Shown in pieces: positions 15,441-22,120 of a DNA stretch of 49,710 nt (positions are counted from its first letter, which is position 1; each line of letters opens with the position of its first letter). Source of the DNA: Actinomycetota bacterium (GTDB lineage Bacteria > Actinomycetota > Acidimicrobiia > IMCC26256 > VFJJ01); the NCBI GenBank assembly GCA_009886115.1, contig VFJJ01000130.1:1-49710 (forward strand). Direction: 5' to 3'. The position numbers and the translations under genes are program-made. The notes under the pieces are model-generated. The model was given only the letters and a program-made list of their open reading frames with translations, ran no database searches and was not told the origin of the DNA.

Positions 15441-16484
15441 GTGGCCCAGGCCGAAGGACGTACCGAGAAAGCGACACCCAAACGCAAGCGCGACGCGCGC
15501 CGTGAGGGCCAGGTCGTGAAGTCGGTCGAGGTCTCCACTGCCCTGTCGCTCCTGGCCGGCCTCATCGCGATCAAGGCCTTCGTGCCCCTCGTGACCGGCA
15601 GCATCGTGGATGGCGCCCGTGGGATCTGGGCCAACGCCGGCGCTGGGATCTCCCGCGATGCCCTGGCCGGGGATGCATCGAGGATGTTCCTGGTCGGCGC
15701 GGCGCCGTTTCTCGGTACCGCGCTCGTGCTCGGGGTGGTCGGAGGCTTCGCCCAGACCGGCTTCGCCTTCGCCATAGCAGCCGCCAAGCCCAAGCTCTCG
15801 AACCTGAGCCTGAAGCGGGGGCTCGGACAGCTCAAGCCCGGTCGGGCCGGCTGGACCCTCCTGAAGGAGTCCCTCAAGGTCGGGATCTTCTTCCTCGCCG
15901 TCAAGGGCCCGATCACCAACTGGATGGCGGGCTTCTCGACGGCCAAGTCGCTGTCGGCCTGGGTGACGAGCACCAGCACGATGGTGTGGTTGGCCCTCGT
16001 GCGGGGTGTCGTGCTCGGTTTCGTGATCGGGGCGGCCGACTACCTCGTGGCCAAGCGGCGCATCAACAAGCAGATCCGGATGTCGAAGCAGGAGGTGAAG
16101 GAAGAGCACAAGAGCAACGAAGGCGACCCGAGAATCAAGGGCCAGCGGCGCCGTCGAGCCCAGGAGCTCTCCCGGAACCGGATGATGAGCGAGGTGGGCA
16201 ACGCCGACGTCGTGATCACGAACCCGACGCACTACGCCGTGGCGCTCAAGTACGTCGACGGTGAGCCCGCGCCGCGAGTCGTGGCCATGGGCGCCGACCA
16301 CCTGGCGCTCAAGATCCGGAAGCTGGCTTACCGCCACGGCGTGCTCGTCCAACAAGACCCCCCGCTCGCTCGAGCCATCTACCGCCGCTGCAAGGTGGGT
16401 CAGTACATCCCGTCGATGCTCTACGAGGCCGTTGCCGTCGTGATCGCCACGGCGTACCGCCGTCGACTCAGAGGGATCGCATGA
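15441..16484 (+). CDS. flhB: Flagellar export switch protein FlhB
   Basis: FlhB sets substrate specificity of the export apparatus and cleaves itself when the hook is finished. The 347-residue protein starts AQAEGRTEKATPKRKRDARREGQVVKS (family: sGE.TE.PT.krl..AReeGqv..S), has four hydrophobic segments to about residue 205, and a cytoplasmic domain with the autocleavage site NPTH (261-264) in DVVITNPTHYAVALKY. The C-terminus PPLARAIYRRCKVGQYIPSMLYEAVAVVIA is typical. GTG at 15441 follows GCGCGAGG. flhA overlaps its last four bases. Confidence 0.96.
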   Translation: MAQAEGRTEKATPKRKRDARREGQVVKSVEVSTALSLLAGLIAIKAFVPLVTGSIVDGARGIWANAGAGISRDALAGDASRMFLVGAAPFLGTALVLGVVGGFAQTGFAFAIAAAKPKLSNLSLKRGLGQLKPGRAGWTLLKESLKVGIFFLAVKGPITNWMAGFSTAKSLSAWVTSTSTMVWLALVRGVVLGFVIGAADYLVAKRRINKQIRMSKQEVKEEHKSNEGDPRIKGQRRRRAQELSRNRMMSEVGNADVVITNPTHYAVALKYVDGEPAPRVVAMGADHLALKIRKLAYRHGVLVQQDPPLARAIYRRCKVGQYIPSMLYEAVAVVIATAYRRRLRGIA

Positions 16485-18529
16485 AGAACCGCATGGCCAA
16501 CGGTGCGCTGCCGATGTTCGTCATCGGCGCCCTCTTGATGATGGTGCTGCCCGTCCCGCCGTTCGTCCTCGACATCATGCTGACGCTGAACATCGGCGTG
16601 GCCATCCTCATCCTCATCACCACCATCCTCTTGAAGGACAGCGTCGACTTCTCGATCATGCCGTCGCTGCTCCTGGTGACGACGTTGGTTCGGCTGTCGC
16701 TGTCGGTGGCGGCCACCCGCCTGGTGCTGATCCACGGCCATGCCGGCAAGGTGATCGAGACCTTCGGCCACATCGTGATCGGCGGGTCGGTCGTCGTCGG
16801 CCTCGTCATCTTCTTGATCCTGATCGTCATCCAGGCCGCGGTGATCACCCACGGCGCCGGACGCGTCGCCGAGGTCGCGGCCCGCTTCACGCTCGACGCC
16901 ATGCCCGGCAAGCAGATGGCGATCGACGCCGACCTGACCTCCGGGCTCGTCGACGAAGAGGGCGCCCGCGAGCGGCGGCGGCTCGTCGCCAAGGAAGCCG
17001 ACTTCTACGGGGCGATGGACGGCGCGTCGAAGTTCGTCAAGGGCGACGTGATGGCCGGGATCGTGATCGTGATGGTCAACCTGCTCGGTGGCTTCGCCAT
17101 CGGGGTCGGCCAGAAGGGGATGAGCTTCGGCGAAGCCATCACCACTTACTCCCTGCTGACGATCGGCGAGGGCCTCGTCGCTCAGATCCCGGCGCTGCTG
17201 ATCTCGATCTCGACCGGTCTGCTCGTCACCCGGGTGGGCACCGGTGACGACCTCGGAAGCTCCGTCGGCACCCAGCTGCTCGGCGGGGGCCGCAACATGC
17301 GCATAGCCGGCATCGTCATCGGCATCTTCGCTCTGCTCCCGGGCCTGCCGAAGCTGCCGTTCATCCTCGTGGCCGGGACCATGTTCCTCCTCGGGAGCCG
17401 GCCGATGCCAGATGCGCTCGGGGGCGGTCCCGTCGACGACGTTCCGGCCGTCAAGGTCAATCCCGATACGCCCGAGGCGATCATCGGCGAGATGCGGGTC
17501 GAGCCCCTCGAGCTGCACCTGGCCTATGACATCCTCGATCTGATCGACACGGCTCGAGGTGGGGACCTCCTCGAGCGGGTCCGGGCGTTGCGCCGCCAGA
17601 TCGCCATGGAGCTCGGCGTCGTGATGCCGTTCGTGCGGACTCGCGACGACGTGACCCTGGACCCCACGTCGTATCGCGTGCTCGTGCAGGGCACCGAGAC
17701 CGCGAAGGGGACGGCCCCACGCGACCAGGTGCTCGCGCTGCCGATGGGCGATGGGCGTGACCTGCGCAACCTCGGCGGTACCGACACGATCGAGCCGGTC
17801 TTCGGGCTCACAGCGTTCTGGGTACCGGTCCACAACCGGGCCGCAGCCGCAGCGACCGGCGCCACGGTCGTCGACCGATCGTCGGTGATCGTGACCCACC
17901 TCGCCGAGGTCGTGCGCCGCAACGCCGCCCGGCTGCTGTCGCGCCAGGACGTGCAGATGCTCGTGGAAGGCCTGCGCTACGAGGAGCCCCTCCTGGCCAA
18001 CGAGATCGGCTCGGAGCATCTCCCGCTGAGCACGCTCCACGCCGTGCTGCGCGGGCTCCTCGACGACGCCGTGTGCATTCGCGACCTCGGTCGCATCACC
18101 GAGGCCATCTCGGGCAAGGCCCGCGAGACCCGGTCGGTCGAGACGCTCGTGGCCGCGGCCCGGGTGGCGCTGGCCCCGGCGATCATCGCGGCGCTGGCCC
18201 CCCAGGGGAAGTTGGCCATCATCGTCTTCGATCCGCAGCAGGAGACCCAGCTCCACGAGTCGCTGCGCGAGATCGACGGCGAGGTCCGTCTCGTCCTCGA
18301 GCCCCAGCGGACCAACCACATCCAGCAGGAGATCCAGACCATCGTGGCCACGGGCAACGACGGCGCCAACCCGGTCGCCGTCGTGTGCAGCCAAGCCCTG
18401 CGCAATCCGTTGCACCGGCTGCTCCAGGCCCTGGGCCTCGAGACGAACGTCATCGCCTACCCCGAGCTCCCGAACTCGTTGGAGCTCGTCACGATCGGAG
18501 TGATCGGCCATGCCCGAGTCGAAGTCTGA
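16481..18529 (+). CDS. flhA: Flagellar export protein FlhA
   Basis: FlhA is the nonameric export-gate component that couples proton flow to export and docks chaperone-substrate complexes. The 682-residue protein has eight hydrophobic segments in the first half, with the conserved cytoplasmic loop GRVAEVAARFTLDAMPGKQMAIDADL followed by EADFYGAMDGASKFVKGDVMAGI. The soluble C-terminal half holds motifs such as VIVTHLAEVVRRNAARLLSRQDVQMLVE and LLDDAVCIRDLGRITEAI. The length is normal (about 690). Four-base overlap with flhB; the FlhF-like gene starts 20 bases inside its 3' end. Confidence 0.97.
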   Translation: MKNRMANGALPMFVIGALLMMVLPVPPFVLDIMLTLNIGVAILILITTILLKDSVDFSIMPSLLLVTTLVRLSLSVAATRLVLIHGHAGKVIETFGHIVIGGSVVVGLVIFLILIVIQAAVITHGAGRVAEVAARFTLDAMPGKQMAIDADLTSGLVDEEGARERRRLVAKEADFYGAMDGASKFVKGDVMAGIVIVMVNLLGGFAIGVGQKGMSFGEAITTYSLLTIGEGLVAQIPALLISISTGLLVTRVGTGDDLGSSVGTQLLGGGRNMRIAGIVIGIFALLPGLPKLPFILVAGTMFLLGSRPMPDALGGGPVDDVPAVKVNPDTPEAIIGEMRVEPLELHLAYDILDLIDTARGGDLLERVRALRRQIAMELGVVMPFVRTRDDVTLDPTSYRVLVQGTETAKGTAPRDQVLALPMGDGRDLRNLGGTDTIEPVFGLTAFWVPVHNRAAAAATGATVVDRSSVIVTHLAEVVRRNAARLLSRQDVQMLVEGLRYEEPLLANEIGSEHLPLSTLHAVLRGLLDDAVCIRDLGRITEAISGKARETRSVETLVAAARVALAPAIIAALAPQGKLAIIVFDPQQETQLHESLREIDGEVRLVLEPQRTNHIQQEIQTIVATGNDGANPVAVVCSQALRNPLHRLLQALGLETNVIAYPELPNSLELVTIGVIGHARVEV

Positions 18530-20117
18530 GCTGTACGAACCCACGACGTTCCGGTCCTCGTCGGGCCCATCGGCCGCCTCGGGCGGACGTGCGCCGGTGA
18601 CGCTCGACATCGACGAGGGGATCATCGTGGTCGAAGCGCCGACCGCCGAGCAGGCGCTGGCGCAGGTGGCGGCCCAGCTCGGCGACGACGCCCGCATCGT
18701 CTCGGCCGAGCGAATCCAACGCGGCGGACTGGCCGGGTTCTTCGCCAAGGAGATGGTCCAGATCACGGCCCAGAGCGCATCCAGCGCCGGAGCTGCACCG
18801 TCACCGACGCGCACTCCGCTGGAGTCGCGACGCTCGAACGACCGGGACGATCCCAGCGGGGCACCGGTTGGCGTCGATCGGGTGCTCGATCTGTTGTCGG
18901 ACCGGGTCGACGATCGCGAGCAGGACTTCGGCGCTGCCTTGCGCGAGCACCTCCGGGAGCGACGCGACCGACCAGGCGAGGGTCTCACCGGAGGATCGGG
19001 CGCGATGGCCGGCGCGATGGGCGAGTCCGCGTCGGCACCGTCGCACGCGGCACCGTCGGAGAGCTCGACCTGGCGTCGACCGGTTCCCGTTCCGACGCCG
19101 CGGCAGTCTCTGGACCAGGCGGTCCAAGACCGGGCGGTCCAGGACCACACGGCACCTGGGCGGGGTCGGGCCGATCGACCGATCACGGTCCCAACCCCGC
19201 CCCGGCCGTCGACGTCACCTCGCCGGGCCGCGCCGGCTGCGGTCGAGCACATCCTCCGACAGGCCATCGCCGACCTCCCCGAGATCACGAGCCCCCCTCC
19301 CGAACCCGCAACCCCGCGCCGAAACGGTGCCACCAACGCTGATCGCAGCGGTGATCCCGTGCCTGGTCAGACCCATGTTCGCGCAGAATCGGCGGCAGAA
19401 TCGGCGGCAGAATCGGCCATCGAATCGGCCGCCGAATCGACCGCCGAATCGACACGTCCGACGACCACCGCAACGGCCACCGCAACCACGGCCGCCCCCA
19501 CCACTGCCCCCACGATCACGGCATCGCCACGACGAGGCCGACTCGCCGCCACGTACGACACATTCGTCACGCCGGGTCAGGGAGCGATCGGATGGAGCAC
19601 CGACGCGCTCGTCCACCGGGGCGTTCCCCTCACGATCTGCCGGTCGACCTTCGATCTCGATCCCGACGACGACGCCGGCTGGATCTACGCGATCGCCGGC
19701 GCCGTCAGCCCCTATTGCCGACCGCTCCCTGCCGGGTCCTCGGTCATTGCCGGCCCCCGCCTCGACCGGGTGGCCGAGGCCCTCGACGTGCCGTTGGTGA
19801 GCTACCCCGATGACCCGCCCTACGGGGGCTCGGTGGCGCTGCGGATGCGCACCGAGGACGCTGCGTCACGGTCATGGTTCGATCGTGTCCGGGGTGATCG
19901 CTGGTTGCATGTCGTGGCCGGCGGGCCCTGGAAGGACCTCGTGGCCCAGGAGCCGGCAGTGGTCTCGTGGGTCGGTGACGACGGGCTCATCCGAGCCCTG
20001 CAGCTGTGCGCGACCTACGACGTGGGGCTGGCGTACGGAACCTTGGGCAACCAACTGGTCCGCACCCAGCCGGTCGACGTCGCCATCGCTCTGCGTGGCT
20101 TGATCGACCGTCACTGA
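18510..20117 (+). CDS. FlhF-like protein lacking recognisable GTPase motifs
   Basis: True FlhF is an SRP-type GTPase that places the flagellum at the pole. This 535-residue protein has an FlhF-like N-terminal segment (residues 32-90): a strand VVEAPTAEQALAQVAAQLGDDARIVSAERIQRGGLAGFFAKEMVQITAQ, matching the B domain (..eAl..vr..lG.dAvIls.r....gg..GfFak..veitA). A long disordered S/T/P/A-rich linker with repeats follows (about 90-340). The C-terminal 190 residues end in DVGLAYGTLGNQLVRTQPVDVAIALRGLI, like the end of an FlhF NG domain. However, no P-loop (GxxGxGKT) is present, and TKxD is replaced by WVGDD. So either it is a degenerate FlhF or an unrelated domain with a similar end. It overlaps flhA by 20 bases; no flhG follows. 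Confidence 0.6.
   Translation: MPESKSELYEPTTFRSSSGPSAASGGRAPVTLDIDEGIIVVEAPTAEQALAQVAAQLGDDARIVSAERIQRGGLAGFFAKEMVQITAQSASSAGAAPSPTRTPLESRRSNDRDDPSGAPVGVDRVLDLLSDRVDDREQDFGAALREHLRERRDRPGEGLTGGSGAMAGAMGESASAPSHAAPSESSTWRRPVPVPTPRQSLDQAVQDRAVQDHTAPGRGRADRPITVPTPPRPSTSPRRAAPAAVEHILRQAIADLPEITSPPPEPATPRRNGATNADRSGDPVPGQTHVRAESAAESAAESAIESAAESTAESTRPTTTATATATTAAPTTAPTITASPRRGRLAATYDTFVTPGQGAIGWSTDALVHRGVPLTICRSTFDLDPDDDAGWIYAIAGAVSPYCRPLPAGSSVIAGPRLDRVAEALDVPLVSYPDDPPYGGSVALRMRTEDAASRSWFDRVRGDRWLHVVAGGPWKDLVAQEPAVVSWVGDDGLIRALQLCATYDVGLAYGTLGNQLVRTQPVDVAIALRGLIDRH
19382..19453 (+). repeat. 12-bp tandem codon repeat inside the FlhF-like linker
   Basis: About six imperfect copies of a 12-bp unit (GCAGAATCGGCG and variants) encode AESA, AESA, IESA, AEST and similar units. 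The early copies are identical, the later ones diverged. It lies in the disordered linker and keeps frame. Confidence 0.85.
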
Positions 20118-20130
20118 CGAGGAGCCGGCC

Positions 20131-20481
20131 ATGGACCCCGACGAGGCGCAACCGGGACCGATCGACGTCACCGACACGGGGCTCGATCCTCTCGACGCGC
20201 CGACAGGCACGATCGCCGAAGCTGCGAGCCCCGTCCGGTCGGCCACGCTCCCGGGCAGGACGAGCCCGTTGCGCCGGCTGATCGGCGTGCTCGGGCTGCT
20301 GGCCCTCGTACCGACCGCCTGGATGCTGTTCAAGGATCAGATCACCGTGTCGGACGCCGGACAGCGAGCCGCCATCACCTACGTCGCGGTCCGGATCGCC
20401 TTGCGCTTGACCGGTTGGGGGATCGCCAGCGTGGCCCAGTTCCTCGACACGAACGACACCGGTATCCCCAAGCCGCTCTGA
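20131..20481 (+). CDS. Small hypothetical membrane protein at the end of the flagellar operon
   Basis: I do not recognise this 116-residue protein. It starts at an ATG following GAGGAGCCGGCC, 13 bases after the FlhF-like gene. Residues 1-45 are acidic and polar with repeated ID/LD and T residues. RTSPLRRLIGVLGLLALVPTAWMLF (about 43-67) is a basic-flanked membrane helix. A second amphipathic or weakly hydrophobic segment (AAITYVAVRIALRLTGWGIASVAQFL) follows, and the tail is polar. The charge pattern suggests both ends may be cytoplasmic if the second segment inserts. Close spacing and strand make it part of the flhB-flhA unit, so a role in flagellar placement or export is possible but unproven. 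Confidence 0.65.
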   Translation: MDPDEAQPGPIDVTDTGLDPLDAPTGTIAEAASPVRSATLPGRTSPLRRLIGVLGLLALVPTAWMLFKDQITVSDAGQRAAITYVAVRIALRLTGWGIASVAQFLDTNDTGIPKPL

Positions 20482-20599: not shown

Positions 20600-22120
20600 T
20601 CAGCCCGAGCCGAAGAGCTCCAGGGCAGCGCGAACGACCATGGGGTCGAAGCGCACCCCGGCGCCTTCTTGGAGCCTGGCGACGACCTCGCTCATGGTGA
20701 ACGCCTTCCGGGCCGCCGATCCGGTGATCGGGTTGCTCCAGCTGTCGTAGGCGTCAGCCACGGCGATGATGCGAGCCCCGAGGGGGATCTCCTCGCCCGC
20801 GAGCCCATCGGGGAACCCGGTGCCGTCCCAATGCTCGTGATGGGCCCGGATCGCCTTCGACACGTCGGGCCCGGCCGACACCCGCGCGTACCGGTCGCTC
20901 CGAATCGCGTGCTGCTGCCACCGGTCGATCATCTCCGGGTCGCCGTCGGTCGGCGGTTCCATCATCGCGTCATCGGGCAATCCGACCTTCCCGATGTCGT
21001 GCAACAGAGCGGCCAGACGGATCCGCACGAACTCCTGCCCGTCGTAGCCGAGTTGCTTGGCGAGCTCACCGGCATAGTCGGCCACGCGCGAGCTGTGCGA
21101 TCCCGGATACCCGTCGATCTCGTCGACGTGCGCCGCCAGCTTCAGGGCCGCTTCCAGCTCGGTGCTCGAGGCGAGCGATTTCGAGAGCTCGTCCGCCGAG
21201 ACCGTTCCGCCCCCCTCGATACTGCGTGCGGCCTCCAGGGCCCGTTCCGCCAACTCCCTGGCGATGCGAACGTCGGACGCGACCTCGGGGCCGGCGTGGC
21301 CCATGGCCATCCTGAGCGCCTCGCTGTTGACGGGCGAGAAGGTCGCGGTGACCTCGGCCATCTCCCGACCGAGCTCGAGGGCGCCCGCGATCGACAGGTC
21401 GCTGGCGAGGAGCGCGAATCGGGCCTCGTCGATCGTGAACAACTCGGAATTCACCTGCCGCGCCAGGTCGGCGAGCAGCAGCGACATCCGTCGGCGGAGG
21501 AGCCGCAGGGCCTCGCGGTCCATACCCCTGATCGCGGCTTCCATGTTGATGATCTCGAGGAATCCCACACGCGGGAGCACCCGATCCTGGGAGAGCTCGG
21601 CCAGGCGCAGCTCGAAGGCTGACGACCCGGGCAGGTTGGTGATCTCGTCGCGCCCGCGCGCCGAGGCGTCGCCGGCTCGATACCGGTCGACCCGCTTCTC
21701 GTACGAGCTGCTCAGCGAGTCCTCGCTGTCGGGGTACCCGAGGAACGACCTGATGCCCTGCTCGTTGCCCTCACCCACGATGGCTGCGGCGCCGGCCTGC
21801 ATGATCTCGATGGCCACCGCCTCGCCGCCCGCGTGGCAGACCACGACGATCGGGGCGTTCGTGATGGTACGGAGCTCCTCGACGAGGCCGAGCGAACGCC
21901 CTCGTGGCACACGCGTCGAGACGGCGATCAGATCCGCCTGCGCGGCCCGGTGCCCATCGTCTGTGATCTCCACCGGGCAGGCGTCGGTGATGCGCTGCCG
22001 CGAGGCATCCGAGAGCCAGTAGGTCACGATCAGTCCACTGGTGACCTTGGCCGGCGGCGTCGGGGGCTGAGCCGTCGCGACGGCACCACCAGCTTCGGGG
22101 GACTCCGACATGTTGGTCAC
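20600..22120 (-). CDS. HD-GYP domain protein with degenerate receiver and GGDEF-like parts
   Basis: This is a predicted cyclic-di-GMP phosphodiesterase or a derived signalling protein (506 residues). Residues 28-130 look like a receiver fold but no acceptor aspartate context is evident. Residues 157-300 resemble a GGDEF domain (DEITNLPGSSAFELRL) in which the GGDEF loop is replaced (FTIDEARFALLA), so cyclase activity is unlikely. The HD-GYP domain at 330-500 keeps HSSRVADYA, HD at 374-375 in LLHDIGKVGLP, and HHEHWDGTGFPDGL (427-440), where the GYP tyrosine is F. The start is GTG at 22120 or ATG at 22111. It follows the FliA/WhiG sigma gene by 9 bases in the same direction, linking second-messenger signalling to flagellar expression. 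Confidence 0.85.
   Translation of the reverse strand: MTNMSESPEAGGAVATAQPPTPPAKVTSGLIVTYWLSDASRQRITDACPVEITDDGHRAAQADLIAVSTRVPRGRSLGLVEELRTITNAPIVVVCHAGGEAVAIEIMQAGAAAIVGEGNEQGIRSFLGYPDSEDSLSSSYEKRVDRYRAGDASARGRDEITNLPGSSAFELRLAELSQDRVLPRVGFLEIINMEAAIRGMDREALRLLRRRMSLLLADLARQVNSELFTIDEARFALLASDLSIAGALELGREMAEVTATFSPVNSEALRMAMGHAGPEVASDVRIARELAERALEAARSIEGGGTVSADELSKSLASSTELEAALKLAAHVDEIDGYPGSHSSRVADYAGELAKQLGYDGQEFVRIRLAALLHDIGKVGLPDDAMMEPPTDGDPEMIDRWQQHAIRSDRYARVSAGPDVSKAIRAHHEHWDGTGFPDGLAGEEIPLGARIIAVADAYDSWSNPITGSAARKAFTMSEVVARLQEGAGVRFDPMVVRAALELFGSG

Follow-up and report, generated by a model that had tools for sequence, protein, structure and literature searches.

Gene Organization at the Locus

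The window, i.e., the whole stretch of 49,710 nucleotides analyzed (contig VFJJ01000130.1 from a bacterium of the class Acidimicrobiia), carries flhA at positions 16481..18529 of the forward (+) strand (TIGR01398, E 6.2e-215). The gene placed directly downstream (18510..20117, +) is flhF-like. It starts with ATG, overlaps the flhA stop by 20 nucleotides and encodes 535 residues plus a stop codon. The product is designated here as a putative pseudo-GTPase FlhF, based on the open reading frame, the N-terminal match to FlhF and the relatives found in other genomes. The next gene (20131..20481, +) codes for a small membrane protein of 116 residues, which its neighborhood and the alignment in relatives place in a two-TM family. 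An HD-GYP-type protein is encoded on the adjoining opposite strand (20600-22120, -).

The FID/B-domain of the FlhF-like protein covers residues 40-109 (18627..18836, +). It matches positions 5-75 of the TIGR03499 FlhF profile with 36.6 bits (E 4.8e-9), well below the curated cut-off of 174.15 bits, and the match is restricted to the N-terminus. The whole protein has no match in Pfam, and no NG match was obtained in Pfam or NCBIfam. The initial annotation had taken the N-terminal domain and the position after flhA as signs of FlhF; the profile match and the upstream flhA bear this out, and the FlhF identity of the protein is well supported.

The FID is followed by a low-complexity repetitive linker (about residues 97-345; 18798..19544, +), delimited by the alignment, by tandem repeats and by the low pLDDT of the linker of a relative. 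It includes 12-bp repeats (5.8 copies at 19382-19451) and, around residues 120-150, a short helix-like segment that is conserved, and corresponds to the repetitive segment of about 250 residues already noticed between the two ends of the protein. The putative pseudo-NG domain occupies residues 346-535 (19545..20114, +), an assignment that depends on AF2, Foldseek and a chain of profile comparisons. According to alignments and motif counts, the former P-loop position is placed at residues 411-420 (SVIAGPRLDR; 19740..19769, +), without GK[ST].

The flhF-like gene is unique in its genome, as judged by a profile search; two stronger SRP-type matches, both on contig 39, look like FtsY/Ffh. The genome encodes FliG. 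Among its eight ParA-family matches, from which the presence of FlhG (a MinD-type ATPase with an N-terminal DQAxxLR) was judged, none is FlhG-like and none contains DQAxxL; they look Mrp-, CpaE-, Soj- or ArsA-like. The genome is 95.6% complete. In the other genomes FlhG was judged from the neighborhood only.

Relatives and Loss of the GTPase Motifs

The same architecture is present at seven loci from named metagenome-assembled genomes, mostly Acidimicrobiia, and in many further genomes from the order and class of the window. Each of the 16 proteins in the first alignment is matched by the TIGR03499 FlhF profile. The relatives split into two clades. Clade A, which includes the window protein, has a short C-terminal domain, the signature VSWVG and an end like RAxPVDVALAIR. 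Clade B has a longer C-terminal domain with WGVVDATRKPED, TVSPAA and GRLDGRPATPxRWA.

FlhF is described as requiring GTP binding and dimerization to place or start flagella, and the need for hydrolysis differs between species. The canonical FlhF (TIGR03499), an SRP-type GTPase that positions flagella, and the window protein share the N-terminal FID/B-domain, a linker, an NG-like C-terminal fold (predicted in the latter) and the place after flhA. In contrast to canonical FlhF, the window protein has no G1, insertion box or G4, and its repetitive linker is longer. The absence of a visible P-loop and TKxD, first remarked for this protein alone, extends to its 61 relatives. The pattern GxxxxGK[ST] is found at the G1 position in none of the 62 motif-less proteins, and [TNS]KxD is likewise missing from the last 200 residues of all of them. 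The state described initially for one protein thus turns out to be lineage-wide.

The loss is graded between groups. All four motifs are present in the 15 canonical FlhF. In the 15 intermediates the P-loop is always retained, G4 is kept in 10, G3 in 7 and the insertion box in only one; neither the P-loop nor G4 is found in any of the 62 motif-less proteins. The SRP insertion box with DTYR is not present in the window protein. A few DTYR-like regular expression matches occur in L013, L021 and L142, and G3-like ones in six motif-less proteins; the latter were not counted, because short regular expressions match by chance. A hidden P-loop variant, which would have refuted the initial annotation, is conserved in none of the 62 proteins: the two candidates, one inside the L048 linker and the other close to the L068 C-terminus, were rejected as chance matches. 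The β1 loop differs between the clades, being VVGP in clade A and VVGxGA in clade B.

With the GTP-binding motifs gone, the usual GTP switch therefore cannot place or start the flagella of these lineages.

Predicted Fold and Descent of the C-Terminal Domain

The AF2 input contained residues 340-535 of the window protein and the sequences of six clade A relatives, seven sequences in total and all without P-loop. The best of the five models has a pLDDT of 82 and a pTM of 0.78; the mean pLDDT values of the five models are 82.0, 81.5, 71.6, 59.8 and 43.3. In a Foldseek comparison of the window model with the PDB, the first 26 matches are all SRP GTPase NG domains, the best of them with E 4.7e-5 and probability 1.00, and the TM-scores are moderate (0.46-0.55 in the ten best). 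The closest solved folds are the NG domains of FtsY and Ffh, which, unlike the window protein, are active GTPases with full motifs and no FID. In the full-length model of the relative L014 all 50 of the PDB matches listed are SRP NG domains. The overall confidence of this model is low because of the linker. Its N-terminal domain is predicted as β-α-β-β, which resembles the FID of Shewanella, described as three strands and one helix (PMC11236974).

Profile comparisons supply the line of descent. The P-loop-retaining FlhF of the phylum compare with canonical FlhF with a score of 215. Clade B, when compared with canonical and P-loop-retaining FlhF together, reaches 63.8 (E 1.6e-8), against 21.7 for the best of 30 column shuffles, and the alignment is colinear over 222 columns; the segment TKLDE of canonical FlhF becomes ENLADT-like in clade B. 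Clade A compares with clade B with a score of 31.7, the best shuffle reaching 18.5. No direct signal was obtained between clade A and the canonical FlhF NG, and comparison of the clade B profile with PDB sequences yielded nothing beyond chance matches. The NG descent of clade A therefore relies on the fold and on the clade B intermediates.

The C-terminal domain of the window protein is thus supported as an NG descendant with a predicted NG-like fold, within the limits of the moderate TM-scores and of three weaker AF2 models among the five. The predicted fold and the missing motifs uphold the initial view of an FlhF-like protein apparently without its former GTPase, whereas the functional side of that view, a new kind of placement or export factor, is inference only. 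The reading of the last 30 residues as the end of an NG domain fared less evenly: it found no support by direct sequence comparison and stands only through the predicted fold and the intermediate sequences.

The motif-less C-terminal domain is under purifying selection in the relatives. Nei-Gojobori dN/dS ratios of this domain range from 0.05 to 0.29 in nine pairs, dS being saturated in the tenth. The ratio of the linker is above that of the C-terminal domain in eight of the nine pairs and equal in the ninth. The ratios are rough, because several dS values are high.

Distribution in the Class and Phylum

FlhA was found in 46 of 296 genomes of the class. None of the 296 contains a canonical FlhF over the curated cut-off; in the phylum sample 15 of 396 do. 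An FlhF-like gene was detected by profile in 42 of the 46 flhA genomes, a few being contig-end fragments, and also in two class genomes without detected flhA. The remaining four were at one point taken to lack the gene. This was rejected, as reading downstream of flhA located an FlhF-like gene without P-loop directly after it in all four. The Fisher p-value for the co-occurrence of flhA and the FlhF-like gene is 7e-44 when only the profile counts are used and falls to 5e-52 once these four genomes are included; both values are descriptive, because the genomes are related. The resulting 46/46 includes G226, whose C-terminal part is only presumed to be NG-like. In this genome the 818-residue FlhF-like frame (L142, 2750-5203, -) has, where the linker normally lies, a long charged segment resembling a coiled coil. 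Throughout the relatives the flhF-like gene overlaps or abuts flhA. Annotation misses the motif-less FlhF because every member falls well short of the FlhF cut-off score.

Outside the class, four states are observed. Canonical FlhF followed by a MinD-type gene is present in families f58, f60 and f72. The P-loop is kept, with the other motifs eroded and no MinD-type neighbor, in f69, f70, f76, f89, f92, f100 and f103. FlhF without P-loop occurs in f64, f79, f82, f86, f88 and f93, and the FlhF gene is missing from the region downstream of flhA in f59, f85 and f106. The phylum shows a gradient from canonical FlhF with FlhG, through P-loop-retaining but otherwise eroded FlhF without adjacent FlhG, to motif-less FlhF and to the absence of flhF. 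The eroded P-loop-retaining FlhF (L093, L094, L169-L172 and others) share with the window protein the gene position, the FID, the lack of an adjacent FlhG and often the same two-TM neighbor, but differ from it in retaining the P-loop and, in many cases, TKxD or SKxD, whereas the window protein keeps neither.

The FlhA tree (83 rows; quick search, SH-aLRT) places every one of the 56 motif-less rows, together with two rows that lack FlhF, in a single clade of support 100. The simplest reading of this tree would be that the P-loop was lost once and that the gene itself later disappeared twice. The window FlhA groups with f24, f26, f64, f88 and f93, and not with f2, f13 and f18 of its own order, a pattern suggesting that the flagellar cluster has moved between lineages.

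The Two-TM Neighbor

The product of 20131-20481 has no match in Pfam or NCBIfam, and neither database holds a family for its relatives. Its hydropathy displays one clear transmembrane segment, the second being supported by the family alignment. The members (L010, L023, L154, L169, L173, L162 and others) have about 60-160 residues, a few being longer, and a predicted transmembrane hairpin with G, A and R conserved around the loop. Where the downstream sequence is long enough, the gene is nearly always found after the flhF-like gene, often overlapping the preceding gene by 4 nucleotides, and in some families it comes after a PilZ-like gene. L066, L141 and L184 showed no such gene. In L162-L164 and L173, where flhF is missing, it follows flhA; the two-TM protein must have some role of its own, because it is present without flhF.

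Other genes adjoin in some relatives, as identified by eye. A PilZ-like gene lies between the flhF-like and two-TM genes in L146, L167, L159-L161, L165, L181, L036 and L037, and an HD-GYP look-alike comes directly after the flhF-like gene in L066.

The two-TM protein is a candidate partner of the FlhF-like protein, on the grounds of neighborhood alone and without binding data. FipA, the membrane partner of FlhF in γ-proteobacteria, is also a small membrane protein encoded near flhF. FipA crosses the membrane once, carries a DUF2802 domain and is found together with FlhG, whereas the actinobacterial protein is predicted as a hairpin of two transmembrane segments and lacks any known domain; no Pfam match to DUF2802 was obtained in the 20131-20481 product.

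Discussion

It is probable, though not established, that the gene is an flhF orthologue whose NG domain has turned into a pseudo-GTPase and acts as a nucleotide-independent tether. The mechanism is inferred. The FID would hold FliG and, via FliG, the MS-ring protein FliF, for which there are no binding data. The long flexible linker would span the distance between the FID and the dead NG domain, and the NG-like surface would now serve protein binding only. The dead domain may dock on a membrane partner, most likely the adjoining two-TM protein if neighborhood alone is followed. Such docking would replace the GTP-dependent homodimer cycle stimulated by FlhG, of which no candidate is seen in the window genome, unlike in the FlhF-FlhG system. 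The motifs that an NG homodimer of this kind requires are missing from the window protein. In Shewanella, FlhG stimulates FlhF. In the same genus FliG is the binding partner of the FID, HubP is bound by the NG domain whether or not nucleotide is present, and FliG in complex with FlhF can still accept FliF, though not FliM/FliN (PMC11236974). A motif-less FlhF could keep such a tether without the GTP cycle, and its likely anchor in the membrane, the two-TM protein, would act as FipA assists FlhF in γ-proteobacteria (PMC11620751). On the other hand, FlhF and FliG of P. aeruginosa form a stable complex only in the presence of a GTP analogue (PMC12713375). Tethering of FliG by a nucleotide-free FID is thus not automatic, and this counts against a simple carry-over.

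A minority possibility is that binding of a nucleotide or some other small ligand survives in the C-terminal domain via rebuilt non-canonical motifs, the switch persisting in a new form. The β1 loop keeps a glycine in both clades, surrounded by conserved residues; the intermediate group indicates that motifs can erode one by one; and the PilZ-like and HD-GYP neighbors suggest c-di-GMP input nearby. However, the P-loop Lys-Ser/Thr and TKxD, the specificity motif, are missing from all 62 proteins, and a shared new ligand site would not be expected to give β1 loops that differ between clades A and B.

Marginally less likely still is a role at the export gate, in which the FlhF-like protein would act as, e.g., an FlhA assembly factor or regulator and no longer place flagella. 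The overlapping or abutting flhA (translational coupling) and the small membrane protein that then follows are compatible with such a role. Nevertheless, the position beside flhA says nothing new, because canonical flhF is also directly after flhA in the phylum, and the best recognizable part of the protein is the FID, whose known partner is FliG.

It is very improbable that the C-terminal domain has no relation to NG and that its likeness is convergent, another α/β domain having been fused to the FID. The moderate TM-scores and the missing direct match of clade A leave some room for it, but SRP NG domains are the top matches of two separate models, clade B connects with canonical FlhF and clade A with clade B above all shuffles, and the gene position is the same within one FlhA clade.

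The last alternative, a decaying remnant with flhF nearing loss and a C-terminal domain without remaining function, can call on the relatives that lack flhF altogether (L173, L184) and on the actinobacterial flagellum described as degenerating (PMC10746217), but is already largely refuted and hardly credible: the low dN/dS of the C-terminal domain led to the rejection of a decaying gene, the predicted fold is kept, the frames are open without stop in nearly all members and the gene is retained in every flhA-positive genome of the class.

The nucleotide-independent tether may be part of a wider scenario, which is advanced only tentatively. In one large flagellated branch of the Actinomycetota the FlhF-FlhG switch would have been replaced by a nucleotide-free pseudo-GTPase FlhF that tethers FliG/FliF together with a new two-TM partner. 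The phylum would preserve the steps, from FlhF with FlhG, P-loop-only FlhF and dead FlhF to the loss of FlhF with the membrane protein remaining.

No literature on FlhF as a pseudo-GTPase or pseudoenzyme, or on an SRP pseudo-GTPase, was found, subscription papers not being covered. In a 2023 survey of actinobacterial flagella, the later, non-FlgFG classes were reported without FlhF (PMC10746217). If the motif-less clade corresponds to these classes, an equation that is inferred, the motif-less FlhF revises this published absence. The two-TM proteins represent an undescribed small membrane family, a candidate FlhF partner, across the Actinomycetota. By retaining the tethering domain and a selected NG fold without the GTP motifs, such a lineage separates the scaffold from the switch, and this separation makes the question of the GTP need of FlhF testable.
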